Part shown: positions 1,324-17,255 of the stretch, piece after piece
Layout of the letters: every line of letters starts with the position of its first letter
How positions within the stretch are numbered: the stretch's first letter is position 1
Source of the DNA: a bacterium HR21
GTDB taxonomy: Bacteria; Bacteroidota; Ignavibacteria; Kapaibacteriales; HRBIN21
DNA length: 64,000 nucleotides
Assembly: GCA_002898295.1 (NCBI GenBank)
Contig: BEHX01000010.1
Coordinates: 1 to 64,000, forward strand
Direction of reading: 5' to 3'
The notes under the pieces: model-generated
Told to the model about the DNA's origin: nothing
What the model saw: only the letters and a program-made list of their open reading frames with translations
Databases searched by the model: none
Translations under genes and position numbers: made by a program

Positions 1324-2108
1324 AACGACAGCGACCCCAGGTTCTCTACCACGACGACGACCTCATCGTGGTCAACAAGCCGCCGGGGGTGCTGAGCATC
1401 CCGGATCGCTTCCAGAAGGACCGACCGCACGTGCGCGGTATCCTGGAGCGCCGCTTTGGGAGGCTCTACGTTGTGCACCGACTCGATAAGGATACCAGCG
1501 GCGTGATGCTCTTTGCTCGGACGGCGGAAGCACACCGAGCGCTATCGCTACAGTTTGAATATCGCCGAGTGGAGAAAGTCTATCACGCCGTGCTCTCCGG
1601 CATTGTAGAACAGGATGCACTCGAGGTGGATTTCCCGCTCCTTCCCGATCCGCGCCGTCCCGGACGGATGATCCCCTCAGCCCGAGGCAAGGAAGCACGC
1701 ACCAGCATTCGTGTGCTTGCCCGCTTCCAGATTGCCACCTACGTGGAGTGCCGTCTGACGACCGGGCGCCTCCACCAAGTGCGGGTTCACTGCGCCGCGC
1801 TGGGGCATCCCCTGTTGGTAGACCCCGACTACGGGGGGGCACCGGCGTTCTTCCTTTCGAGCATCAAGCGGCGCTACAAGCTGGCTCAAGATGAAGTTGA
1901 GCTCCCTCTCCTGGCGCGGCTCCCACTCCATGCTCTGGGACTCGGCTTTGAACATCCGCGGACAGGACAGTGGATGCGCGTCGAAGCCCCGCTACCGAAA
2001 GACTTCCGCGCCCTGCTTCACGCCCTGCAGAAGTACGCCCCCTACAGTCCTGTCTGGCTTGAGCCGATAAAGGAACTACCCGGGGAATCCCGAACCCGGA
2101 CTCCGTAG
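1320..2108 (+). CDS. RluA-family 23S rRNA/tRNA pseudouridine synthase
   Basis: Predicted to isomerise specific uridines in 23S rRNA or tRNA to pseudouridine. The family signature HRLDKDTSGVMLFAR contains the catalytic Asp; YHDDDLIVVNKPPGVLS is the usual first strand of the catalytic fold, and GRLHQVRVH the late conserved motif. No S4 domain precedes the catalytic domain, so it resembles short RluA/RluC-like members rather than RluD. Three ATGs are available (1278, 1311, 1320). I chose 1320 because it makes an ATGA overlap with folD and yields about 262 aa. The exact uridine target cannot be read from sequence. The TAG stop lies inside the palindrome TCCGTAGTTTTACGGA, which recurs at 6176. Confidence 0.9.
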   Translation: MKRQRPQVLYHDDDLIVVNKPPGVLSIPDRFQKDRPHVRGILERRFGRLYVVHRLDKDTSGVMLFARTAEAHRALSLQFEYRRVEKVYHAVLSGIVEQDALEVDFPLLPDPRRPGRMIPSARGKEARTSIRVLARFQIATYVECRLTTGRLHQVRVHCAALGHPLLVDPDYGGAPAFFLSSIKRRYKLAQDEVELPLLARLPLHALGLGFEHPRTGQWMRVEAPLPKDFRALLHALQKYAPYSPVWLEPIKELPGESRTRTP

Positions 2109-2118
2109 TTTTACGGAT
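2101..2118. repeat. Palindromic repeat copy 1 (TCCGTA-GTTT-TACGGA) at a stop codon
   Basis: The 18-base string ctccgtagttttacggat occurs here and exactly again at 6176-6193. Its core is a 6-bp inverted repeat with a GTTT loop. In both copies the TAG in the left arm is the stop codon of the upstream gene, and a gene for an exported protein lies downstream. There is no T-tract after the stem, so it is not a classical terminator. The centre (TAGTTTTA) resembles the TAnnTTTG promoter element with one mismatch. Its role is unknown. Confidence 0.6.
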
Positions 2119-2140: not shown

Positions 2141-2148
2141 TAATTTCG
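2141..2148 (+). promoter_or_regulatory. Candidate -7 element TAATTTCG upstream of the large adhesin-like gene
   Basis: TAATTTCG matches the Bacteroidota -7 consensus TAnnTTTG at 7 of 8 positions and lies 42 bases before the chosen start of the 1206-aa exported protein. No convincing -33 TTG is seen. It could serve as that gene's own promoter, but the match is imperfect and read-through from folP-folD-rluA is also possible. Confidence 0.35.
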
Positions 2149-2182: not shown

Positions 2183-5100
2183 ATGCGCTATGGATACCTC
2201 GTGCTATTTGCTTTCGGGACAGCGCTGGCACAGCAGAACGTCGGCATCGGCACATCTACCCCTGACCCTTCAGCACTGCTCCACCTGGAGAGCACCAGCA
2301 AGGGACTGCTCATTCCCCGGATGACCCAAGCGCAGAGGAATGCGATTGGTTCCCCGGCAACGGGGCTGATGATCTACCAGACCGATAACAACCCCGGCTT
2401 CTACTACTGGAACGGCACAGCGTGGATCCCACTGCTGAGCAGCACTTCGGGAAGTGGCTTGTTCTGGTCCCTGACGGGCAACAGCGGGACGAATCCGGCG
2501 ACGCACTTTTTGGGCACGACCGATGCACAGCCGCTCATTCTCCGGACTAATACAACTGGCTATCCAACTGGCGGATACCTGCGGCTCAGTGCCGATGGGC
2601 GGGGCAGACTAGAGTTTCTCAATGCGGGTGCGAGCGTGTTGATCGGGGAAGGAGCTGGAGCTGGAACCGATTTTTCTGCGCCACGCTACTCTGTGATGGT
2701 CGGATATAATGCCGGTGCAGCACAAACGACAGGACAATTCAACACCGGCATCGGAGCAGCTGCTTTGCTATCCTTGACGACGGGCTCCGATAACACGGCG
2801 GTTGGGATGGCAGCTCTTTACAGTACGACGGTAGGAGAACGAAACACCGCCGTTGGAAGGTCGGCATTGGAAGGAAACCAGACAGGGGCGGCAAACACCG
2901 CCGTGGGATATCGGGCACTTGAAGGTAATGTCGGTGGATCCTACAATACTGCTCTGGGTGCTGGTGCAACTGTTGGCGCAAGCAATTTGACCAATGCAAC
3001 AGCAATTGGGTCCTGGGCCCGAGTAGATGTGAGCAATGCCCTTGTCCTGGGCTCAGTTGCAGGAGTCAACGGGGCACCGGCCACAGTGAACGTCGGCATT
3101 GGGACCACCTCCCCGACGAACCGGCTGCACGTGGTAGCCACGAGCGATCCACTGCGCTTGGAGGGGATAGCAGTGGATGCGGCGCAGGACACGGTGTTGG
3201 TGGTGACCTCGAGTGGGGTGGTGAAGAGGCGCTCGCTTAGTGAAGCTATGGCCGGGACAGCCTGGTCTTTGGCGGGAAATGCTGTTGGGAGTGCATGGAA
3301 CGGGACGACCGGAAGCTTTCTGGGCACGACGAATGCGCAGCCGTTGGTGATAGCAACGACGAACACAACAACACCACAGCCAATACAGTTTTGGACTAGC
3401 AACCAGGAACGGATGCGGATTACAGCGGCGGGTAACGTCGGCATTGGTGTGAGCACACCACTGGCTCGTCTGCAGACACAAACGCTTTCCCCTACGGGAG
3501 CAACAGAGGCAATCTTTGGCTGGGGGAATCAGGGGGTCTCGCTCATGTCTCGCTGGCCTACCGTGGGCTTCAATGCGTACTACGACTACGGAGCCAGTAC
3601 GTGGCGTTCTCTGGATGCGGGCTGGACAGGCAATATCTCACAAGATCAAACCGATGGGAAGCTGCGCTTCGAGACAGGCTCTGCAGCCGTCGCCGGTGCC
3701 GGGCAGAGTGTCTCCCATACCGTGCGGATGGTCATCACGCCGACCGGGCGTGTTGGGATCGGCACTGATAACCCGCTCCAGGCACTCCACGTGGTGGGAT
3801 CTGCATATGTCTCGCAGCGCCTGGGCATTGGAGTTGCTTCTCCCAGCAATGTGCTGGAAGCGGTTGGGAACTATGCCGTCCTGAGCAATCCCAGCGGCAG
3901 CTTTCAGCTAGCGCTATCGAAGAACACAGCCTCCGCAACGGCATCCGTGCTCTTCCAGACGAACTACAGTGGACGTGCCGAGTTCGGCATGATCGGGGAT
4001 GAGAACTTCCGCCTCAAGGTTTCCCCCGACGGGAGCACCTTCTACGAGGCGATCTTCATTGCAAACTCCTCAACCCCATTGGTTGGCATTGGGACCACCT
4101 CCCCGACGAACCGGCTGCACGTGGTAGCGCCCAGCAATCCGCTGCGCTTGGAGGGCTTGCAGACAGACAACACACTGACACAAGTGCTGGTAGCCGATGC
4201 CACTGGAGTGGTCAAGGTCCGCTCGGCAAGTACGTTGGTATCGGGCACGGCCTGGTCCCTGACGGGCAACAGCGGGACGAATCCTGGAACGAACTTTTTG
4301 GGGACAACCGATGCCCAGCCACTGGTCATCCGCACGAACAACCTTGAGCGGCTGCGGGTGACGGCAAATGGGAATGTCGGCATTGGTGTGACCTCGCCTT
4401 CCTATCGCCTTGTTGTGGCGGGGAGTATCGGCTTGCAGGCAGGAACGGAAGTCTTCGTCGGAACGCTCGACAGTAATCGTCTACGACTGACTGCTGGTGG
4501 CATAGGTTTGCTCTTGAACCCGCCCGGGGCTACCCCACCAGCAGGAGCAATCCAGCGGGATCCTGGAGGCAACCCACGGGGGATGTATGCGGTTGATCTG
4601 CAGTACGGTTCGGCTATGCTATCACAGGTGGCTTCAGGGAACTATAGCGTCATTGCTGGTGGGAGCTCAAATACCGCCAGTGGTGACTACAGTGTTGTCT
4701 GTGGGGGGTATGGAAATACCGTAGGCAGTACCTACAGCTTCGTTGGTGGGGGAAGTGGGAACACTGCATCAGCTGCTGGCGCAGTTGTCGGTGGTCAAGG
4801 CAATACGAGTAGCGGTCAGCTGGCCTTCGTTGGTGCAGGGTATCAGAACACTGCCAGCGGTCAATACAGCACAATTGGCGGTGGATATCAGAACACCGCT
4901 AGCCTCGTTGCCAGCACCGTTGGCGGGGGCTTGCAGAACACCGCCAGCGGTCAATACAGCACCGTTGGCGGGGGTGTTCAGAACACCGCCAGCGGGATCT
5001 ACAGTGCGATTCCGGGCGGGTATAACCTCAAGGTGGGTGCCCGCAGCTTTGGCTTCAGTGGGCAGTCGTCGGCAACGCAGACGGATTTGAGTAGCTCCAG

Positions 5101-5803
5101 CAACATTGCCGCCTTTGTGGATGTGGACTTGTGGCTGTACAGTGTCCGGAATCAGGCATCACAGCTGCGGCTCTACGAAGCATCCGCTCACACCAGTGGG
5201 CAGAATTACGTTGGGTTCCGGGCACCGAATTCCTTGACAGGGAACACGGTCTGGACCCTTCCGTCTTCTGATGGTGCCCCAGGACAAGCGCTCGTGACCG
5301 ATGGCAGCGGGCAGCTCAGTTGGGGCTACTCCCCGGGAGTCGTTCTCGTCCGGAAGACGAGCGACGAGAGTGTGAATTCAACCACGCTGCAGGACGATGA
5401 CCATTTGACGGTGTCTCTCCCAGCAAACAGTGTGTGGGAAGTGGATGCACTGCTGTTTGTCTACGGCAGTCCGAATAATAATGATAACGGCGGCATTCAG
5501 GTCCGACTTTCCGCTCCGACCGGGACAACGATGCAGGTGTATGTGGAGATCAAGAAAGGTGGGTCGGGTAGTGACCTCACCCATCACTGGTTCTATGGAG
5601 TGCTGACTTCACCGAGCAGTTCGGTGGGATTTAACCCGATTCCAACCGCGGCAACTGGAACGGGGGCAGTCAAGCTGAAAGGCTTGGTATTCGTCGGAAG
5701 CACCAGTGGGAATCTTGTCCTGCAGTGGGCGAAGAATGCTACCGCTGGCAACGCGACGACGGTCTGGCAGAATTCCTACATGAAGCTTACGCGGGTGCAA
5801 TAG
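2183..5803 (+). CDS. Large secreted adhesin / tail-fibre-like repeat protein
   Basis: Predicted exported, fibrous surface protein of about 1206 aa. The ORF opens at 2165, but ATG 2183 gives a clean signal peptide (MRYGYLVLFAFGTALAQ), so I prefer it. The mature protein starts with the QNVGIGTSTPDPSALLHLES module and the GLLIPRM and GLMIYQTD motifs common in Bacteroidota secreted proteins. Residues about 173-262 hold NTAVGxxAL repeats. A VGIGTTSPTNRLHVV module occurs twice and a WSLTGNSGTNP...FLGTTDAQPL module three times. Residues about 820-945 form a GGGxxNTASGxYS array, like the head repeats of YadA-type trimeric adhesins. The C-terminus (from about VLVRKTSDESVNS) is a separate beta-rich domain resembling phage/tail-fibre tips. 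No T9SS sorting domain or peptidase S74 chaperone was seen, so the export route beyond Sec is unclear. Adhesion is an inference from repeats only. Confidence 0.75.
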   Translation: MRYGYLVLFAFGTALAQQNVGIGTSTPDPSALLHLESTSKGLLIPRMTQAQRNAIGSPATGLMIYQTDNNPGFYYWNGTAWIPLLSSTSGSGLFWSLTGNSGTNPATHFLGTTDAQPLILRTNTTGYPTGGYLRLSADGRGRLEFLNAGASVLIGEGAGAGTDFSAPRYSVMVGYNAGAAQTTGQFNTGIGAAALLSLTTGSDNTAVGMAALYSTTVGERNTAVGRSALEGNQTGAANTAVGYRALEGNVGGSYNTALGAGATVGASNLTNATAIGSWARVDVSNALVLGSVAGVNGAPATVNVGIGTTSPTNRLHVVATSDPLRLEGIAVDAAQDTVLVVTSSGVVKRRSLSEAMAGTAWSLAGNAVGSAWNGTTGSFLGTTNAQPLVIATTNTTTPQPIQFWTSNQERMRITAAGNVGIGVSTPLARLQTQTLSPTGATEAIFGWGNQGVSLMSRWPTVGFNAYYDYGASTWRSLDAGWTGNISQDQTDGKLRFETGSAAVAGAGQSVSHTVRMVITPTGRVGIGTDNPLQALHVVGSAYVSQRLGIGVASPSNVLEAVGNYAVLSNPSGSFQLALSKNTASATASVLFQTNYSGRAEFGMIGDENFRLKVSPDGSTFYEAIFIANSSTPLVGIGTTSPTNRLHVVAPSNPLRLEGLQTDNTLTQVLVADATGVVKVRSASTLVSGTAWSLTGNSGTNPGTNFLGTTDAQPLVIRTNNLERLRVTANGNVGIGVTSPSYRLVVAGSIGLQAGTEVFVGTLDSNRLRLTAGGIGLLLNPPGATPPAGAIQRDPGGNPRGMYAVDLQYGSAMLSQVASGNYSVIAGGSSNTASGDYSVVCGGYGNTVGSTYSFVGGGSGNTASAAGAVVGGQGNTSSGQLAFVGAGYQNTASGQYSTIGGGYQNTASLVASTVGGGLQNTASGQYSTVGGGVQNTASGIYSAIPGGYNLKVGARSFGFSGQSSATQTDLSSSSNIAAFVDVDLWLYSVRNQASQLRLYEASAHTSGQNYVGFRAPNSLTGNTVWTLPSSDGAPGQALVTDGSGQLSWGYSPGVVLVRKTSDESVNSTTLQDDDHLTVSLPANSVWEVDALLFVYGSPNNNDNGGIQVRLSAPTGTTMQVYVEIKKGGSGSDLTHHWFYGVLTSPSSSVGFNPIPTAATGTGAVKLKGLVFVGSTSGNLVLQWAKNATAGNATTVWQNSYMKLTRVQ
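2464..2496 (+). repeat. 33-bp direct repeat, copy 1 (inside adhesin gene)
   Basis: The string beginning ctggtccctgacgggcaaca is identical at 4252-4284. It encodes the WSLTGNSGTNP module; similarity continues imperfectly into FLGTTDAQPL. Confidence 0.85.
3095..3138 (+). repeat. 44-bp direct repeat, copy 1 (inside adhesin gene)
   Basis: The string beginning ggcattgggaccacctcccc is identical at 4085-4128, 990 bases downstream and in frame. It encodes the GIGTTSPTNRLHVV module. The distance is a multiple of three, so recombination between copies would keep the reading frame. Confidence 0.9.
4085..4128 (+). repeat. 44-bp direct repeat, copy 2
   Basis: Exact second copy of 3095-3138 in the same reading frame. 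The flanks also encode similar residues (NPLRLEGL versus DPLRLEGI), so the repeat is part of a longer, diverged module duplication. Confidence 0.9.
4252..4284 (+). repeat. 33-bp direct repeat, copy 2
   Basis: Exact second copy of 2464-2496, encoding the WSLTGNSGTNP module of the adhesin-like protein. Confidence 0.85.
4645..5020 (+). repeat. Tandem ~42-bp repeats encoding GGGxxNTASGxYS units
   Basis: About eight to nine consecutive 14-residue units of the form GGG-x-x-NTASG-x-YS-x-V. The last units are nearly identical at the DNA level (blocks around cagaacaccgccagcgg), while earlier ones have diverged (GGYGNTVGSTYS, GGQGNTSSGQLA). The pattern matches left-handed beta-roll head repeats of YadA/Hep_Hag-type adhesins by eye. 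Nearly identical neighbouring units suggest recent unit duplication. Confidence 0.8.
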
Positions 5804-5805
5804 CA

Positions 5806-6183
5806 ATGCGCACAGTACTGCTCCTCGGAAGTATCGCGTGGATGGCTCTCCCGCTGCCGGCACAGGTGTTGACCAATAACGGTGCGATGCTTTTCCTCAA
5901 CACTGGTGCCACGATGGTGGTCAATGGGGATGTGCAACAGCAGGCGTCGGGCACGCTGCAGCTCCAACCCTCGACCACCCTTCAGGTTTCCGGCAATGTG
6001 ACGATAACCTCAGGGCAACTCCAGTTGAATGGCGATGCCTTCATGCAGGTGACGGGGAACATGACCGTTGGTCCAACCGCCACGGTGGACCGGGCGGCGA
6101 ATGGGACCCTGGAAGTCCACGGCACGTTCAACAATCAAGGTACGGTAACCAACCATGGCACGGTCGAAGTCGGACCTCCGTAG
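5806..6183 (+). CDS. Small secreted N-x-G-T repeat protein (125 aa)
   Basis: Unknown function, predicted exported. The ORF track starts at 5725 inside the preceding gene; the ATG at 5806, two bases after that gene's TAG, gives a signal peptide (MRTVLLLGSIAWMALPLPAQ). The mature part is a beta-rich repeat of short strands with N-x-G turns (LTNNGAM, NTGATMVVNGDV, VSGNVTI, EVHGTFNNQGTVTNHGTV), as in beta-solenoids. It ends abruptly in GTVEVGPP, and the next gene's product ends in GTIEVGP, so the two look like paralogues of different length. No sorting domain. The stop codon lies within palindrome copy 2. It is probably co-transcribed with the adhesin upstream. Confidence 0.7.
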   Translation: MRTVLLLGSIAWMALPLPAQVLTNNGAMLFLNTGATMVVNGDVQQQASGTLQLQPSTTLQVSGNVTITSGQLQLNGDAFMQVTGNMTVGPTATVDRAANGTLEVHGTFNNQGTVTNHGTVEVGPP

Positions 6184-6193
6184 TTTTACGGAT
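6176..6193. repeat. Palindromic repeat copy 2 (TCCGTA-GTTT-TACGGA) at a stop codon
   Basis: Exact copy of the 18-base string at 2101-2118, again carrying the TAG stop of the upstream gene. Downstream of both copies, after 55 and 67 bases, the string GTATGTC occurs, with GTATGTCCCAT at 2156 and 6300. This suggests the two leader regions share ancestry, or a shared regulatory layout. Confidence 0.6.
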
Positions 6194-6328
6194 TCCAGAT
6201 ACCTGACGCGCTGCCGAACTTCGCAGCCGGAATCCTTGTCGAGTATGTCGGATAGAATCCGTGCGATGGCAATGAAGTTCCTCCAGCGAGCTGTACGGAG
6301 TATGTCCCATCTATGGCAGGAGTCTCTC

Positions 6329-8518
6329 ATGAAGGCTGCTGTTCGTGTATTCCTGGTGCTCGTGACTGCTGCCACCGGGATGGCGCAGAATATCGTCAAC
6401 TCTGGAGTGCTCAACAATAACGGGACGATTATAGTCAAGAGCCACTTCATCAACCAGGCAAGTGGACAGATCAACAACAACGGGACCATCCGCTTTACCT
6501 CGAACACCGGGGAGTTCCGGAACGGGAATTCGAACCTCGCCCAGATTGTCAACAACGGCTGGTTCGAATTCCGGGGGACGGATAATCGGTTCACGGATCT
6601 GAGCTCAAATCCTGCCGGGACGACAGCTCTTGGGGTGGCGTGCGATTTCCGTGTGCCAGGGAACATGCGGTATACGGCAAGCTCGGGGACACAGAATGTA
6701 CAGGCGCGCTACTACACCAATCTCGAGATGGCTGGCGCTTCGCAGAAGGCGATTCCCGATGCTGTCTATGTGTCCGGGACGTATGACGTCGTCAGTGGCA
6801 GCGGGGACCGAACGTACACGGGGACGTTTTACTACGACGGGACATCCGACCAGACAATCTTTGCTGAAACGGCAATGTCGGGCTCGGTCAATCGCTACAA
6901 CAACCTGGCGATCATGACTGGCTCGGGAGCGTGTGCGGTGGGCTCCAGCACGAAGACAATTGCAGACAACCAGACCATCAGCCTATTGGGGAACTTCTCC
7001 AGCGCTGCCAACACGACCTTGGACCTCAAGGGGCAGCTCTTCGCGAACGACGTGACCGCCAATGGTCCGATCACGATCAACGATCCGACACCAGGAACCA
7101 CGTTTGCTGAACTGCGGAGCAGCGGAATAGCGAGCTACGCGGCGAATGTGACCGTCACTGCTGGGCTCTTCCATGTTGCCGGTGGGACAGCAACTGTCCA
7201 GAGCGGGGCAACGCTCTCGTTGGCAAATTCCACCAACGCTCAGCTCCAGCTGGATAATGGAACGACTTTGGACATCGCTGGCGTGCTTCAGAACAACCTC
7301 CCCGCCCGTACGAACTGGACTTTCGATGCGGGCTCGACTCTCCGCTTTACGGCAACAGCTCCGGGACAGACAATCCCGTACACCGTCGCGTCAAATCCCT
7401 ACGGCAATGTCTTCACTTCCGGTGGGACGAAGCAGACAGAGAGTGGTGGCAATGTGTACGTAGCGGGCAACCTCACGGTTGAGAGCGACAACATCACTGT
7501 TGCAACCGGGCAGACGTGGATTATGACGTCGCCGACAGCATCGGTCACCTATAGCGGTGCTGGAGCCAATTCAGAGGTTGTGGGGGCGATGCAGCGTGCT
7601 CTGAGCGGGACGGGTACATACACCTTCAACAATGCCCAGACCCAGGTGACCTTCACCGCTGGTACACTGCCTTCGACAATGACCATTACCGCCCTCCCGG
7701 GGACGAGCCCGAACAACTACGACAACACCCGGGATGTCCAGCGTAAGGTGACGGTAAGCTGGGCTGGCTCGAATAACTGGACAGCAACTTTCCGCGTGGG
7801 GTATAAAGCGAGTGATATTCCTGCGACTTGGAGCCCCGGGGTGAGCGAGAGCAATCTCCGTTTCTATGAATCCCCCTCTGCAGGGACGCCGGAGAAGGTA
7901 GCAACAGGACAGCCCTATAACCGGTCTGCTGCCGGTGCCGGACTTGGCTACATTGAGCTAGCGGGCATTCAGGGGACTGGAACACCAGTGCCGAACGGCT
8001 TCGGATACATTGCTTCCGGCAACGATCTGCTCCTGCGTGGTGGTCCGAGTGTCTTCTACGCTATTGCTCATGGGCGCTGGTCCAATCCAGCTACGTGGGA
8101 CGAGGGAGCGGAGCCTTCTCCCACAGACGAGGTCGTCATTGATGGCTTCACGGTCCATGCCGGCTACGTTCGGACGATTGACAACTATACTGGCAACGAA
8201 GCGTATCCCACGCAGTTGGCGGCGAAGATCACCATTGGCTCCAGCCCCAATAGCGCTCTGCTTTTCGGTTCTACCAGCGGGGCGAAGACCTTTGCTCTCA
8301 ACTACGGTACGGGAATTCCGGGTGAGCTTATCAACAACCGTCAGGGGACAGCGACCATTAGCAGTGGGACGCCCGATACAGGGAGTTCGCCAATTGACGC
8401 TGGGCTGGTTGTCTACACAACGGCTGGAAACGAGGTTACCCTGCAGATTCCCGGTGGCTTGACGAACGCCTCGGGAGCGACAATCCACAACTTCGGGACT
8501 ATCGAGGTCGGTCCGTAA
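6329..8518 (+). CDS. Large secreted N-x-G-T repeat (beta-solenoid-like) protein
   Basis: Unknown function; about 729 aa, predicted exported. The ORF opens at 6155, but the ATG at 6329 has a good AGGAG 7 bases upstream and gives a signal peptide (MKAAVRVFLVLVTAATGMAQ). The mature N-terminus repeats the N-N-G-T-I pattern (NSGVLNNNGTIIV, QINNNGTIRF, NNGWFEF). The middle has beta-strand-rich segments such as NVTVTAGLFHVAGGTATVQSGATLSL, and later VQRKVTVSWAG and SNPATWDEGAEP modules typical of Bacteroidota extracellular proteins. It ends in HNFGTIEVGP, the same ending as the 125-aa protein upstream. No T9SS sorting domain is visible. It may be a surface fibre or matrix protein; this is inference from composition and context. 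Confidence 0.72.
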   Translation: MKAAVRVFLVLVTAATGMAQNIVNSGVLNNNGTIIVKSHFINQASGQINNNGTIRFTSNTGEFRNGNSNLAQIVNNGWFEFRGTDNRFTDLSSNPAGTTALGVACDFRVPGNMRYTASSGTQNVQARYYTNLEMAGASQKAIPDAVYVSGTYDVVSGSGDRTYTGTFYYDGTSDQTIFAETAMSGSVNRYNNLAIMTGSGACAVGSSTKTIADNQTISLLGNFSSAANTTLDLKGQLFANDVTANGPITINDPTPGTTFAELRSSGIASYAANVTVTAGLFHVAGGTATVQSGATLSLANSTNAQLQLDNGTTLDIAGVLQNNLPARTNWTFDAGSTLRFTATAPGQTIPYTVASNPYGNVFTSGGTKQTESGGNVYVAGNLTVESDNITVATGQTWIMTSPTASVTYSGAGANSEVVGAMQRALSGTGTYTFNNAQTQVTFTAGTLPSTMTITALPGTSPNNYDNTRDVQRKVTVSWAGSNNWTATFRVGYKASDIPATWSPGVSESNLRFYESPSAGTPEKVATGQPYNRSAAGAGLGYIELAGIQGTGTPVPNGFGYIASGNDLLLRGGPSVFYAIAHGRWSNPATWDEGAEPSPTDEVVIDGFTVHAGYVRTIDNYTGNEAYPTQLAAKITIGSSPNSALLFGSTSGAKTFALNYGTGIPGELINNRQGTATISSGTPDTGSSPIDAGLVVYTTAGNEVTLQIPGGLTNASGATIHNFGTIEVGP

Positions 8519-8524
8519 GCGGAC
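8511..8524. other. Short hairpin over the stop codon (GTCCG-TAAG-CGGAC)
   Basis: A 5-bp inverted repeat with a TAAG loop holding the TAA stop of the 729-aa gene. It differs in sequence from the palindrome at 2101/6176 but has the same placement over a stop codon. No T-tract follows. Confidence 0.35.
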
Positions 8525-8541
8525 AAGAGTGGTGCTGATGG

Positions 8542-8588
8542 GGGGGGCGTGGGCACCCGATATTGGTGGTAGGGGACCTGCGCCCCCC
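8542..8588. other. GC-rich intergenic inverted repeat (GGGGGGCG ... CGCCCCCC)
   Basis: An 8-bp perfect inverted repeat with a 31-base loop in the 120-base gap between two exported-protein genes, followed by tcagcgtttt. It may act as a weak terminator or mRNA-processing hairpin. The T-tract is short and offset, so this is tentative. Confidence 0.35.
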
Positions 8589-8638
8589 TCAGCGTTTTGA
8601 GGGTCGTAACGCAGCTGCGCTGCGAGGGAGAAAATGCC

Positions 8639-10675
8639 ATGAAGGGCGAGGATGCTCTCCGGTGGGTACTCGGCGTGGTACTTGTGCTCTCGGTAGTACC
8701 AGCACCTGCGCAGCTGGTGAGCGACGGGGTGATTTACAACCACGGGACCATTGTCATCAGGGGCAATGCGAGGATCCAGCAGGATACGGTGACGGGGACG
8801 GTCATCTATGCCTGGGATCGGGAGGGGGTCAACCAGTACGTGCCGCATAAGGTCTACACCGATGTGCGCTTCACCGGGCGGACGCGGAAGATGCTGCTCG
8901 ATACGGCGCGTCCGCTCATTGCCCTGCAGCGCTTTGTGAGCGATACGGGGACAGTGTTCAGCCTTCCGGTCAAGGCAGCAATTATCGCCCGGGGCACAGC
9001 GGTCCACGGCGGCTTCATCAATCCAGAGTACCTCCACGGGCAGTTTATCTTGCAAGGTGAGCAGCCACAGGATCTCTGGGGACGGGGGATCTTCCGAGAA
9101 TTGAAGCTGGATAACGTTACCGGGGCCGACGTGCGCAACGGGGGCGGGTTTACGGTGACGACACGGCTGGAGCTCCGGCGCGGAGTGCTGCGCAATAGCC
9201 CGGTGGATAACTTCCGCCTAGCCGATTCTGCTGTCATCGTGCGGTATACAGAAGGGGCTCTGGCGGCTGCACCGATTTTTGGGCGGGACCTTGCCCTCCG
9301 CTACGTGGGACCAGGGCGGATTGAGAGCGGTCCGGAAGTGCCGCCGGAGACCATCCCGGTGCGGATGCTCTCGGTGGAGACCGATAGTGGGCTGGTGCTC
9401 CGCTCCTCGGTGACGGTCAGCGACAGCCTGGTACTATCGTCACCGCTCTGGACGGAGCCCGATTCGAGCGAACGTCATGTCCTCACCTACACTGCCGAGC
9501 AGAACGATCCGATCTTCCTCCATCCAGATGCCGAAATCATCGGGACGGTGCGGCGGACACGCCTCCGTACCGATGGTGAGGCGGTGATTTTCAACAATCC
9601 GTACACGTACGTCCGTCCTTCGACCAAGGGGTGGCAGGGGGTTGCGGCACTCCAAATCCGCGTCCTCCCTCGGACACAGCCGTGGCATCCACAGAGCCAG
9701 CGGAAGGTATGGCGGGTTTTCCAGGTAGCAGCATGGGATAGTACCTCCACGCCGGTAGGGCAAGGTCTGGATTTCCGGTTCGGTTACGGCTGGCGGCATC
9801 TGCCGCGGGAACCCCAGCGGGATGAGACCCGCGGGCTTCCGCTGCAGGCATTGGTTCTCCAGCGCTGGACGCAGAATGGGTGGGTTGCCGCTGGGCGTTC
9901 GATCCCACCCGTGCTCGATACACTGACCGGCTGGGCATATGCCTACGCCGATGCGGTCTACGCGACGGGCGACTTCACCATCGGGCTCCGCGACGATGCC
10001 CGGGCGCTACAGCTCCAGCTGGCAGCACTGCTCGAAGGTCCGTACCGCAATGGCTCCATGGTAGACGATCTCCGCCAGCGTGGCTGGCTGCCCGAGACAC
10101 CGCCGGATATCTATCCGTACAACCTGGACCCGATGCGACCCTACATCCGGGTTAGCCCTCTTCCCGACTCTGTGGTAGACTGGGTCGTGGTGGAGCTGCG
10201 GACGCTGCTGACGGGCGGGGAGCGCTACTACCGAACCGCCTTCATCCGCCGGGATGGGCGGATTGTTGACCTCGATGGCAAAAGCCCCATCACGCTGCCG
10301 GGGCTAGAGCAGGGAGCCTACTACGTTGCGGTCCACCACCGCAATCACCTCGCTATCATCACTGCCGAGCCTGTTGAGATTGTCCCGGAGACGCAGTCGC
10401 AGCTGCTGGCGCTGACCAGCGATCCCAGCCGCATTCTCGGTGGGGCAGGGGCGCTCCGGGCGTTGCGCTCCAATGGACAGACAGTCTGGGCAATGATTGG
10501 CGGCGATGTCAATGGGGACGGACGGGTGGATGCAGAAGACCTGCGCTTGCTCCAGCTCTGGCAGCACGTCGAAGGCTATACCAATGCCGATGCAGACCTC
10601 AGCGGCATCGTGACCACACGCGACTTCAACGTGTCGTGGAATAACCGCGATCGGAGTTCTGTTGTCGTGCGCTGA
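8639..10675 (+). CDS. Secreted protein with C-terminal dockerin-like domain
   Basis: Unknown function; about 678 aa, predicted exported. ATG 8639 has GGGAG 8 bases upstream and gives a signal peptide (MKGEDALRWVLGVVLVLSVVPAPAQ). The mature start (LVSDGVIYNHGTIVIRGN) shares the N-x-G-T-I pattern with the two preceding genes. The rest is beta-rich without a motif I recognise. Residues about 610-670 contain two calcium-loop segments, DVNGDGRVDAEDLRLL and DADLSGIVTTRDF, in dockerin type I arrangement with an Asn-rich end (WNNRD). The first loop fits the EF-hand-like consensus well, the second less so. Dockerins bind cohesins in cellulosomes, but many bacteria carry dockerin-like modules without cellulosomes, and no cohesin is seen here. 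The stop shares a base with the next start (TGATG), so translation is probably coupled. Confidence 0.72.
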   Translation: MKGEDALRWVLGVVLVLSVVPAPAQLVSDGVIYNHGTIVIRGNARIQQDTVTGTVIYAWDREGVNQYVPHKVYTDVRFTGRTRKMLLDTARPLIALQRFVSDTGTVFSLPVKAAIIARGTAVHGGFINPEYLHGQFILQGEQPQDLWGRGIFRELKLDNVTGADVRNGGGFTVTTRLELRRGVLRNSPVDNFRLADSAVIVRYTEGALAAAPIFGRDLALRYVGPGRIESGPEVPPETIPVRMLSVETDSGLVLRSSVTVSDSLVLSSPLWTEPDSSERHVLTYTAEQNDPIFLHPDAEIIGTVRRTRLRTDGEAVIFNNPYTYVRPSTKGWQGVAALQIRVLPRTQPWHPQSQRKVWRVFQVAAWDSTSTPVGQGLDFRFGYGWRHLPREPQRDETRGLPLQALVLQRWTQNGWVAAGRSIPPVLDTLTGWAYAYADAVYATGDFTIGLRDDARALQLQLAALLEGPYRNGSMVDDLRQRGWLPETPPDIYPYNLDPMRPYIRVSPLPDSVVDWVVVELRTLLTGGERYYRTAFIRRDGRIVDLDGKSPITLPGLEQGAYYVAVHHRNHLAIITAEPVEIVPETQSQLLALTSDPSRILGGAGALRALRSNGQTVWAMIGGDVNGDGRVDAEDLRLLQLWQHVEGYTNADADLSGIVTTRDFNVSWNNRDRSSVVVR

Positions 10676-11904
10676 TGCGGCGTGTTCTTCCCATCGGGCT
10701 TTCCCTTCTGACGCTGTTCCCACTCTGGGGACAGGCACAGGGGACAGTCGTGACTGCCGTTGTGCTCCCGCAGAGTGCCCCCGATACACTGGAGGTAGAT
10801 CTCCTCGTGCAGCGTCGCACGCTCGAGTGGGAACGCTGGATCAATGGGACGCTGACGCTCGTGTTGCCCGATTCCCTGACTCCATGGCAGACGCTCTCGG
10901 TTGAGGTTGTCCCGGGCAGTAGCCCGCTGGATACGACTTTCTACCGCCTGGAGCCGTTTGTGCTATGGCAGCCGCCGGTACCGGGGACGCAGTGGACCCG
11001 TCCTCGGCTCGGAGTGACCATTTATGGTCCGCCGGATTTCCCGTCCAGCCAGCTCATCCCGTGGGATACGCTCATTCGACTGGTGCGGCTGCGTATCCTC
11101 AGTACCGACGGTTCCTGGGTTCCGTACCAGCTCGACTGGGCGCGTCCTTTGGAGTACTACCAGGGCCTTGCCTACAAGCAGCGGGAAGATGTGCTGCCAT
11201 GGGTACGGGCAGACGACAACCTGGAAATTGTTGCCCGCGCGGAGTACCGTCTGCAGCCCATGCGGGTCCCAGCCCACGTGGTCCAGGACTTCCGCGCGGA
11301 GTACGTCGGCGACCGAACGGTTCGCCTCAGCTGGAGAACGGCAAGTGAGGCATTCAACCGAGGGTTTGTGCTGGTCCGCTGGTGGAAGCCCTTCAACACG
11401 ACCGAGCTGGTGGATTCGGTGCTCCTGGCCGATTGGCAGCGTGTGCCGCTGCTGCGAGGGCTGGGGACCAGCGATACGGGACGCAGCTACGTATTCCTCG
11501 ATACAGACGCGGCGAAGCGCCGGGGGGAAGATTACTGCTACGACCTCTGGAGTACGGACTTCTCCGGACGACTCCGCTACCACGGGCGAGTCTGTGCCGC
11601 AATCCCGCACGCAGTCATCAGCTTTGCCCAAACAGATCCGAATCCCTTCACAGACCGCACGGTCATCCGCTACCGTCTGGAGGACCGCGTGCTGCTGAGC
11701 ATCAAGGTCTACGACCTCAAGGGGAAAGAGCTGGCAACGCTGATGGAGCAGCGGGAAATGCAGCGTGGGGAGTATACCTTCGAATGGCGCACGCCTGCCT
11801 ATGCCTCGCAGGGGCTCTACGATATTGTCCTGATTGCCTACCCGGTGGATGACCCATCGGTTGAGCTCTCGCGGGCGATTATCAAGGCACAGCTGATCCG
11901 CTAA
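10675..11904 (+). CDS. Secreted protein with type IX secretion C-terminal sorting domain
   Basis: Exported protein of 409 aa, predicted T9SS cargo. It starts with a signal peptide (MRRVLPIGLSLLTLFPLWGQAQ). The middle includes an FN3-like segment around FRAEYVGDRTVRLSWRTASEAFNRGF, which commonly precedes the sorting domain. Residues about 312-409 form a type A CTD: DPNPFTDRTVIRYRL, then KVYDLKGKELATL, then ASQGLYDIVLI. It is the only CTD-bearing protein in the 2183-13249 block. The start overlaps the preceding gene's stop by one base, and the next gene follows after 4 bases. The substrate or binding role of its N-terminal domain is unknown. Confidence 0.83.
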   Translation: MRRVLPIGLSLLTLFPLWGQAQGTVVTAVVLPQSAPDTLEVDLLVQRRTLEWERWINGTLTLVLPDSLTPWQTLSVEVVPGSSPLDTTFYRLEPFVLWQPPVPGTQWTRPRLGVTIYGPPDFPSSQLIPWDTLIRLVRLRILSTDGSWVPYQLDWARPLEYYQGLAYKQREDVLPWVRADDNLEIVARAEYRLQPMRVPAHVVQDFRAEYVGDRTVRLSWRTASEAFNRGFVLVRWWKPFNTTELVDSVLLADWQRVPLLRGLGTSDTGRSYVFLDTDAAKRRGEDYCYDLWSTDFSGRLRYHGRVCAAIPHAVISFAQTDPNPFTDRTVIRYRLEDRVLLSIKVYDLKGKELATLMEQREMQRGEYTFEWRTPAYASQGLYDIVLIAYPVDDPSVELSRAIIKAQLIR

Positions 11905-11908
11905 CACG

Positions 11909-13249
11909 ATGGGGCGCAAGCAGCACTGGGGTGTGGTTCTTGTGAGCACTGTGGCTCTCTGGGCACAGGTGCCGCAGTGGACTGTCGTCGAGCGCTGGTT
12001 GCTCGCAACGGGGGATACCCTGGTGCGGCAGCGCGAGGCAGGGCAGTGGTGGATTGGGCTCGGTGGAGGGACCGCCGGAATTGGGTACCTGGGGCGGTTG
12101 AATCTGCCGCGTTCGCCGGAGGTACCCGAGCGCGGGCTTCTGCCGTTCCGCTATGGGATTGGTGCCGGTGTTGGAGTATGGCTCTCGGGCGAGTGGAGTC
12201 CCCCAGGAGAGCGCTGGGGGGTCGTGCTCCGGCTTGCCCCGTGGGAGAGTTGGCGCGGCAGCTCCAGCTTCCGACCTGTGGGGAGCTTGACGGATGAGCA
12301 CTACGAGGTGGAGGTTGATGCCCGCTCTGTTGTCCTGTCCGCCTCTGCTCGCTATACGCCAGGATGGTGGCGTGGAACGCTCTGGGAAGGCTTGCACATC
12401 CTGGCTGGCATTGATGCCCGCTTTCTCTGGAGCGCTCGCGAGCGTGTCCGTCAGGTCTTCCGTTATGCTGAGCGGGTCGAAGAGTGGCGGCTCCAGCAGG
12501 ACCAGCCGCTGCCGATGTGGTTGGGAGTCCACCTCGGCGTTGGGTTGGACATGATCGTCGCCCTCTTCGGGGAGCGGCTGCGGAACTACATAACCCCGAT
12601 GGTGGTGCTGCAGACCGGGCTTCCGCTGCAGCGGACCTGGGGATCTACGTGGACACCGCTTGCTCTCCATGCGGGGCTGACATTCAAGCTCGGGTGGGAG
12701 CGTGTCCGCGAGCAGCTGCTGCCTTGGGATACCACGGCTGGTCCCTTCCTGGCGGGATCTTCCGAGCTGGGACCGGGAGGGGTCCCTCGCCTCTTGAGAG
12801 AAGAACGCCTCCCGCCAGCCCCATTGGCGGTGCTGGAAACTCCCCAGGCAGAGACGCCACCGGAGGAGTCCCCGACTCCGCCGCCGACCTCCCGCATCGC
12901 GATTGTTCCCAACCGTATCCAGCGCTTCAGTTACCCGACCTCTACGGCGGTGGGTATTACCCCGGAGCTCCAACGGTTCTTGGACGCCCTGGTGGAGTAC
13001 CTCCGGGCGAATCCCCAGGCTGAGGTTCGCATCGTCGGGCACACCGATGAGTTCGGGGGAACGCTGGAGGAGACGCAGTACATTTCCGAGCAGCGGGCAC
13101 AGCAGGTGGTCGAGTACTTAGTGCGGCGCGGTATCAGTCGCTCGCGGCTCTTTGCCTCCGGCGTTGGAGCCCGGCAGCCGATTGCCGATAACCGAACCCC
13201 GGAGGGACGTCTGCGCAATCGCCGGGTGGAAATCGTTGTGGTGCAATAG
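11909..13249 (+). CDS. Outer-membrane beta-barrel protein with C-terminal OmpA/MotB peptidoglycan-binding domain
   Basis: Predicted outer-membrane protein of 446 aa. An N-terminal signal (MGRKQHWGVVLVSTVALWAQ) is followed by roughly 250 residues of alternating amphipathic strands, then a Pro-rich linker (about 305-330). The C-terminal OmpA domain carries AEVRIVGHTDEFGG, EQRAQQVVEYLVRRGI and the end motif NRRVEIVV. Such domains grip peptidoglycan. Placed directly after five exported proteins, it may anchor or organise them at the cell surface. That is inference: it lacks the PorP/SprF partner seen in gliding loci. Confidence 0.85.
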   Translation: MGRKQHWGVVLVSTVALWAQVPQWTVVERWLLATGDTLVRQREAGQWWIGLGGGTAGIGYLGRLNLPRSPEVPERGLLPFRYGIGAGVGVWLSGEWSPPGERWGVVLRLAPWESWRGSSSFRPVGSLTDEHYEVEVDARSVVLSASARYTPGWWRGTLWEGLHILAGIDARFLWSARERVRQVFRYAERVEEWRLQQDQPLPMWLGVHLGVGLDMIVALFGERLRNYITPMVVLQTGLPLQRTWGSTWTPLALHAGLTFKLGWERVREQLLPWDTTAGPFLAGSSELGPGGVPRLLREERLPPAPLAVLETPQAETPPEESPTPPPTSRIAIVPNRIQRFSYPTSTAVGITPELQRFLDALVEYLRANPQAEVRIVGHTDEFGGTLEETQYISEQRAQQVVEYLVRRGISRSRLFASGVGARQPIADNRTPEGRLRNRRVEIVVVQ

Positions 13250-13259
13250 TAGCACGGAA

Positions 13260-13661
13260 ATGGCAGACCAGCTGCAGATCTGCATCGTTGAGGACAGCCC
13301 GCCGATTCGGCGACTCATGGAAGTATTGCTGACGAAGGCGGGATTTGCCGTTGTGAGTTTTGAAAGGGTCGACGAGGCAATACGCTGGCTGCAGGAGCAC
13401 CGTCCGTTGGCGGTCCTCTGCGACCTGATCCTCCCGGATGGCAATGGAATAGACGTCTTACGGGCAGTTCGGGCGCAGCCTGGCGGAGAGCAGATCCCCG
13501 TGGTAGCAGTTACTGGGCTGGCGCAGGAGAAAGATCAGGAGTACTACCTCCACCACGGCTTCGACGCCTACCTGATCAAGCCGCTCAGCACTGTGACCTT
13601 CGCTGCGCAGGTTCGGGAGATTCTCGAACGCAAGGAAGCACTCCCGCCGACGGGTAGCTGA
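13260..13661 (+). CDS. Stand-alone CheY-like response regulator receiver protein
   Basis: Single receiver domain of 133 aa with no output domain. Acidic pocket CIVEDSPP, phospho-acceptor Asp in LCDLILPDGNG, Thr in VAVTGLA and Lys in YLIKPLS are all present, so it should accept phosphate. The ORF track extends it to 13152 by reading through the preceding gene; the real start is the ATG at 13260 (MADQLQICIVED), 10 bases after the OmpA gene stop. No histidine kinase is nearby. The partner and output are unknown; it may work by protein-protein interaction. Confidence 0.9.
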   Translation: MADQLQICIVEDSPPIRRLMEVLLTKAGFAVVSFERVDEAIRWLQEHRPLAVLCDLILPDGNGIDVLRAVRAQPGGEQIPVVAVTGLAQEKDQEYYLHHGFDAYLIKPLSTVTFAAQVREILERKEALPPTGS

Positions 13662-16282: not shown

Positions 16283-17255
16283 TGAGCACGCACGAGCTTG
16301 TGAGACCAGCTTCCAGAGGGCGATGTTGAGCCAGCCATTGCCGGCAGTAGGCTTCATCGGCTTGCATCTGGCGGCGGAGCGCTGCCGCAGTAGGGAAGGC
16401 TTCCTCTGCCCGAACCCGCTTCCAGAACGAAACACAGAGGCGCTCATTGTAGAGCGTACCGGAGAAGTCCAGCACGTACAGCTCCAGCTGTGGGGGGAGA
16501 TTCTGTCCAAAGGTGGGGCGCACCCCGTAGCTGAGCAGCCCACCGTAGGACTTGCTGCCGATTTCCGTGGTAGCAATGTATACCCCGTAAGCGGGCAAGA
16601 GCTTTTCGGGGCTATCCGGGACGATGTTGGCTGTGGGGAAACCCAGAAGGCGCCCACGCCCGTCACCACGGACAACTCGTCCGCAGACCGTATACGGGTA
16701 GCCAAGCAGGACGGCTGCAGCTTCGACGTTGCCTTCCAGCAAGAGGCGGCGGATGCGGCTGCTACTGATGGGTTCATTCCCGCTCAAGCACGGCGGGAAG
16801 TGTTCCACGAAGAAGCCGAATTCGGTACCCAGACGCTGCAGTAGTTCACGGTCGCCGCGGCGGTTGTGTCCGAAGCGATGGTCGTAGCCGACGAGGATAC
16901 CGCGCATGTGCAGAGCCTCCACCAGGTATTGCCGGATAAAAGTCTCCGGCTCTGTGCGTGCCAGCTCTTGGGTGAAGGGGAGCACGAGGACTTCGTCGGG
17001 TCCGAGGCGGCGCAGGCGTTCGAGCTTTTCCGGCAGCGGTGTCAGAATACCCGGCAGAGGGGTATTGCCCAGCACCTGTTGTGGATGCGGCTCAAAGGTC
17101 ACAACGCAGGCCGGGAGCCGATGCAGGGCAGAGAGCTCGCGCAGCCGGCGCAGCAGGGCTTGATGCCCCCGGTGGACACCATCGAAAGTGCCTACCGTCA
17201 CCAGCCGCCCATGAGGACTGGGCGGAACATCAGCCAACCGGGTGTAGAGGCGCAT
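16257..17255 (-). CDS. ribF: Bifunctional riboflavin kinase / FAD synthetase
   Basis: Phosphorylates riboflavin to FMN and adenylylates it to FAD. The N-terminal nucleotidyltransferase domain has [17 protein letters not shown] and the ISSSRIR motif; the C-terminal riboflavin kinase domain has [11 protein letters not shown] and GVYIA. About 332 aa, slightly longer than average because of a C-terminal tail. The upstream extension in the ORF track is not conserved; ATG 17255 gives the family N-terminus (MRLYTRL) and overlaps truB by 26 bases. It overlaps rpsO at its 3' end. Confidence 0.95.

Follow-up and report, generated by a model that had tools for sequence, protein, structure and literature searches.

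A conserved gene cluster that probably encodes a regulated, type IX secretion-linked adhesive surface fibre or scaffold in Kapabacteriales

Results

The window, meaning the whole stretch of 64,000 nucleotides that was analysed, belongs to the genome of an uncultured Candidatus Kapabacteria bacterium and carries six consecutive genes on the plus strand, here called A to F, and an open reading frame listing and translation placed all six where the initial annotation had put them. Gene A (2183..5803, 1206 aa) encodes a predicted secreted fibre adhesin with YadA-like head repeats and a stem resembling phage tail fibres and mosaic adhesive trimeric (MAT) fibres, and B (5806..6183, 125 aa) encodes a short beta-repeat protein. 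These are followed by C (6329..8518, 729 aa), a predicted secreted beta-rich protein with the C-terminal signature NxGxIEVG, and D (8639..10675, 678 aa), a C-like protein with a C-terminal module of its own. Protein E (10675..11904, 409 aa) has an N-terminal domain private to the bacterial order, a middle part that looks FN3-like by eye and a diverged type IX secretion system (T9SS) C-terminal domain at about residues 320-409, and F (11909..13249, 446 aa) joins an N-terminal part of about 320 aa, possibly barrel-like, to an OmpA peptidoglycan-binding domain at residues 350-438. The spacings from A to F of 2, 145, 120, -1 and 4 bases, with the one-base stop/start overlap (TGATG) between D and E, are as originally described. 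The relatives compared below are draft genomes and signal peptides were called by eye; judged in this way, all six N-termini do look like signal peptides. The block extends past 13249, where it had been proposed to end, since a gene for a receiver-only response regulator (13260..13661, plus strand, 133 aa; Response_reg, 4.1e-22) starts 10 bases past F and accompanies the block in most relatives. Upstream lie folD-like and rluD-like genes, and downstream of the response regulator is a gene on the opposite strand, named pnp-like from its sequence.

Protein A had been called adhesin-like, and the matches of its sequence to trimeric fibre adhesins and phage tail fibre families bear this out: the tail fibre family phrog_18345 was matched at 1.6e-18, the head of UspA1 (3pr7) at 3.2e-17 and the MAT fibre entries of Bdellovibrio at 8.4e-6 (8ond, Bd2133) and 7.1e-4 (8ojn). 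The C-terminal tip domain (residues 1053-1206; 5339..5800, plus strand) matched phrog_24062 at 2.1e-6. A related tip occurs in family f4 (L044, L052), and other loci have different tips or an S74 chaperone domain, which ends the copy of A in G004 (1.1e-5). Among related A stems the tips form several groups without mutual matches. No Pfam match to a YadA-type C-terminal membrane anchor was found in A. Taken together, A may be a trimeric tail-fibre-like adhesin with exchangeable tips. The same genome has a second fibre-like gene of 2012 aa (G000:C11:54195-57833; L078:3081-9119), which is followed by an 808-aa gene that is weakly A-like.

The description of B, C and D as N-x-G-T repeat proteins suits B (3.2 motifs per 100 aa) and weakly C (0.55), and does not suit D (0.15). 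B matched Fil_haemagg at 4.6e-4, just under the cut-off, and a bactofilin domain in B scored 16.2 bits against a cut-off of 27.9 and was not assigned. None of the three proteins had a Pfam match to the N-terminal TPS (haemagglutination activity) domain at E <= 0.1, and none carries a recognised signal for export across the outer membrane, by the T9SS or otherwise. C and D are homologous to each other (hhalign 99.9%, E 1.3e-35). In families f3, f6, f8 and f10, the place of B upstream of C is occupied by giant proteins of 2,350-4,840 aa (L080:915-14687, L081:3301-17763, L082:4043-18565, L083:1660-12084 and L085:12841-19899; 2,352 aa, a cut gene, to 4,840 aa), and the one that was scanned, the 4,590-aa giant of L080, had no Pfam match. 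B, C and the giants share the signature NxGxIEVG at their C-termini, and a DNA pattern for it had no match in the genome outside B and C. When a profile was built from the C-terminus of B, it matched the final residues of C proteins and of several giants (the latter at 1.6e-7 to 1.5e-4) and gave a weak match at the mature N-terminus of D proteins. B, C and D look like linked beta-repeat proteins that may assemble into a rod.

The C-terminal module of D (residues 460-678; 10016..10672, plus strand) is dockerin-like, with Dockerin_1 matched in 12 of 20 D orthologues (best 1.8e-5) and the window protein at 20.4 bits against a cut-off of 22.9. The whole module, about 220 aa, corresponded to no named family in the libraries searched. 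Among the large Bacteroidota proteins examined that have this module, most have it at or near the extreme C-terminus, and modules of this type (L105-L117) often end in SQVP or similar. Contigs filed as viral (L063, L064, L065) also encode a relative of the D module; these may be bacterial sequence.

For E, the proposed T9SS C-terminal domain scored 13.4 bits in the window protein, where the cut-off is 27, and 10 of the 20 orthologues matched it (best 4.6e-4). The T9SS translocon is present, as SprA_N was found in all 41 genomes searched, with the organism's own copy at 1.2e-42. Structure models of D and E were made with the window protein and one relative, L032, as input. The model of E was confident only in residues 330-409 (pLDDT 62-85), where the last 80 residues were modelled as strands; its Foldseek matches were to generic Ig/FN3-type folds (TM 0.15-0.24) and were set aside. 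The AlphaFold models of these two proteins were poor (pLDDT 48 and 30), so that solenoid folds and trimers are conjectural here. A cohesin identity for E was considered and rejected, as the sequence gave no support for it. The OmpA domain of F is clear (Pfam 7.5e-19; OmpA-like matches in the PDB down to 1.6e-29). The barrel attributed to F is conjectural, with an OMP_b-brl_2 match in one orthologue (9.6e-6), and the N-terminal 320 aa of F matched no NCBIfam or Pfam family, PorP/SprF included.

We searched for E in 41 genomes from ten sampled families and found it at full or near full length in 34 of them, covering all ten families. Full-length E is missing in about a sixth of the 41, every one of which has the T9SS translocon, and full-length D and E were found solely within this bacterial order. 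The regions around the cluster were mapped in 20 relatives initially and 26 in the end. The initial annotation had seen a single apparatus here, an idea that would fail if the genes lay apart in relatives, and for the most part they do not: D adjoins E in 26 of 27 genomes, our own included (the exception is G011), and C-D-E-F is contiguous in most genomes examined. C lies upstream of D in the mapped relatives, either separately or fused to it. The order A-B-C-D-E-F-(regulator) is found again in further families of this bacterial order, with identities of 25-45% and with other genes on either side, and this conservation across families means that the clustering is not due to chance. Gene fusions were found in four genomes, joining C to D in G013, G021 and G019 and all three of B, C and D, as a protein of 916 aa, in G028.

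F comes straight after E or, in f3, with one gene in between; the two such f3 genes that were scanned encode WD40-repeat proteins (L046:7010-8890 and L048:8970-10865), of which the L046 copy also carries a T9SS tail (2.2e-5). In two f7 genomes E has no F beside it, with none found in the G019 or G011 loci, and f2 has shorter F-like proteins that lack the OmpA domain (L049, L050). In G016, F is on a different contig from C-D-E, together with a receiver gene and a kinase-size gene. A response regulator gene lies 3' of F in relatives and is followed in several families by a CHASE-PAS-HisKA kinase gene, which is unlinked in this genus (G000:C5:100906-101433; L079).

An operator-like dyad, TCCGTA-GTTT-TACGGA, lies 5' of A (2102..2117, plus strand, exact) and again 5' of C (6177..6192, plus strand). 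Each copy includes the stop codon of the preceding gene (CCG TAG), that of the rluD-like gene in one case and that of B in the other. These are the only two copies of the 16-base sequence TCCGTAGTTTTACGGA in the 1.83 Mb draft genome, and shuffling gave an expectation of 0.01 in the window. The A-side dyad is kept in G001, G002, G003 and G005 and is degenerate in G004, and the C-side dyad has kept its position in G001 and G004 and, with its arms preserved but a different loop, in G002. The six genomes of the genus have one or two dyads each, and the mapped sites precede A or C or, in G004, a duplicated C-type promoter. This duplicate (L036, near 17218-17233) stands with a degenerate remnant ending VGVGPP-stop, as B does. 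A looser dyad, TMCGTA-N4-TACGKA, was counted 17 times in 0.80 Mb of loci, which partly overlap so that a few of the 17 sites were counted twice, compared with 0-1 in ten simulations. It occurs in f4, f5, f6, f8 and f10, where the sites precede the fibre gene or C, making six families in all; the f2, f3, f7 and f9 loci that were examined showed no dyad.

Downstream of each dyad, at 23 bp, is a putative -7 box, TAATTTCG before A (2141..2148, plus strand), of the Bacteroidota TAnnTTTG type, and the weak GAACTTCG before C (6216..6223, plus strand), which is TAAGTTTG in G002. Flavobacterial promoters have TAnnTTTG as their -7 consensus (PMC9723704). A box of this kind with at most one mismatch lay 23 bp downstream of a dyad in 18 cases, compared with at most 2 for any other spacing, and a scan for sigma-70-type promoters gave a count no greater than chance. 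The fixed distance fits an operator better than a terminator, and the latter was rejected as no T-run follows the dyad and it is absent from the terminator scan listing. An arrangement of two half-sites fits the NarL family, and a NarL-type regulator, which combines a receiver with a LuxR-type DNA-binding domain, has its gene within or next to the cluster in f4, f6, f8 and f10. Its best match in our genome, at 49%, is unlinked to the cluster (G000:C2:25085-25714). We infer that such a regulator binds the dyads.

Discussion

The grouping of A to F with a regulator as one unit under common control is well supported, judging from the genomic sequences compared. The gene fusions (B+C+D and C+D) and the two promoters with a common private operator are independent evidence for such a unit, and together with the conserved order amid changing flanks and the cluster-borne regulator they give good support to the idea of a shared function. 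That this function is a surface fibre or matrix, as first suggested, is likely given the resemblance of A to trimeric fibre adhesins, the predicted OmpA anchor of F and the T9SS-like tail of E. Our favoured reading, which we consider probable, is that the cluster encodes a regulated, T9SS-linked, wall-anchored adhesive fibre or scaffold on the Kapabacteriales cell surface.

In such a structure, the NarL-type response regulator, borne by the cluster in several families and unlinked here, would switch on two promoters by binding the dyads, with A-B driven by one and C-D-E-F-regulator by the other. A would form trimeric tail-fibre-like adhesins with exchangeable tips, and B (or the giant in its place), C and D would be joined end to end in that order as a rod or mat, with the C-terminal module of D as a junction or anchor end. 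E would be exported by the type IX system and hold the assembly at the surface, and F would link it across the outer membrane to the peptidoglycan. The surface location, trimerisation, rod assembly and adhesion, the anchoring roles of E and F and the pairing of regulator and dyad are all predictions of this scheme. A bolder and more tentative version, which we would give a modest chance, is that this is a new kind of appendage in which uncapped beta-repeat proteins with one terminal signature are coupled head to tail in an invariant order. One position would then take either a 125-aa or a 4,800-aa subunit, and in this head-to-tail arrangement the length of the appendage would be set by swapping a single gene.

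The cluster appears to be unnamed so far, and it shares features with several known systems without coinciding with any of them. Bdellovibrio produces MAT fibres such as Bd2133, Bd1334 and Bd3182 (PMC10769870). The tail-fibre-like stem of A is similar in sequence to Bd2133 and Bd3182, the tips are mosaic and an S74-ended form occurs in G004. However, A additionally has UspA1/YadA-like head repeats, and neither conserved partners like B-F nor a T9SS link were met for MAT fibres in the parts of that report consulted (PMC10769870). The head-type repeats of A, matching UspA1, recall the type Vc trimeric autotransporters (UspA1, YadA), but in place of their C-terminal membrane anchor, for which Pfam gave no match, A ends in a soluble-type tip. 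B, just under the Fil_haemagg cut-off, and the N-x-G repeats recall the FHA-type beta-solenoids of two-partner secretion, whereas B, C and D gave no TPS domain match and no TpsB-like gene was noticed in the cluster. The PorE-PorP-PG1035 complex has been described as an anchor of T9SS cargo (PMC9143113), and the pairing of E, with its T9SS-like tail, and the adjoining F, with its peptidoglycan-binding domain, is reminiscent of it. In contrast to that complex, F unites both parts in one protein that has no PorP/SprF match, and no counterpart of B-C-D was met in the parts of that source consulted (PMC9143113). Finally, the pair of dockerin-like motifs in D recalls cohesin-dockerin assemblies, but no cohesin partner was detected in this genome.

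Some of these likenesses lead to other explanations of the cluster. The proteins could form a structural coat, either an S-layer-like sheet or a biofilm matrix that covers the cell, of which A is merely one decorating part. The terminal repeat common to B and C would suit a layer, which E and F could tether, and some families combine giants of 2,350-4,840 aa with only small A-like genes (L080, L082, L083). Against this, A-like fibres with tip and chaperone domains go with the block in many families, and the regulated two-promoter design, like the lack of the block in some relatives, is easier to reconcile with a facultative structure than with a constitutive coat; we regard a coat as rather unlikely. 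Lower still is the probability we attach to a T9SS adhesin set of the SprB/PorP/PorE kind, with E as the tail-bearing cargo, F as a fused barrel and peptidoglycan-binding anchor and A-D as unrelated surface cargo. The adjacency of E and F, the combination of a possible barrel with an OmpA domain in F and the F-like proteins of f2 that lack this domain (L049, L050) are as such a set would predict, but the N-terminal part of F has no match to PorP/SprF or any other NCBIfam family, the tail of E is like type A and not type B, and the fusions and promoters bind B-D into a unit.

The regulatory genes raise the idea of a surface-sensing device, in which contact of the fibre with a target would be signalled by the linked receiver and CHASE kinase. 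The kinase and receiver do lie 3' of F in several families, and in G016 F, the receiver and the kinase-size gene are grouped away from C-D-E. However, the kinase is unlinked in this genus, and the usual role of such proteins, expression control, accounts for them equally well, making a sensor improbable. It is very doubtful that D docks on E or another protein in a cellulosome-like assembly: the dockerin-like calcium-binding motifs of D invite the comparison, but our genome gave no cohesin match at E <= 0.001, protein E itself had none, and the D module closes many unrelated Bacteroidota proteins. That these are independent secreted genes adjacent by accident is hardly credible and strongly disfavoured by the conserved order with changing flanks, the fusions and the private operators.

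In conclusion, the preferred reading of a regulated adhesive fibre or scaffold bears on a group, the Kapabacteria, that is known mostly from metagenomes, and in the literature searched we found no description of its surface machinery. The cluster is a defined set of genes, found in the majority of the genomes sampled from the order, and it comes with a built-in readout of two promoters, one operator and one candidate regulator. It also draws attention to the module at residues 460-678 of D, which is common to many large Bacteroidota proteins. As predicted here, the cluster would connect the tail-fibre-like adhesins of phages and predatory bacteria with the lineage of type IX secretion.
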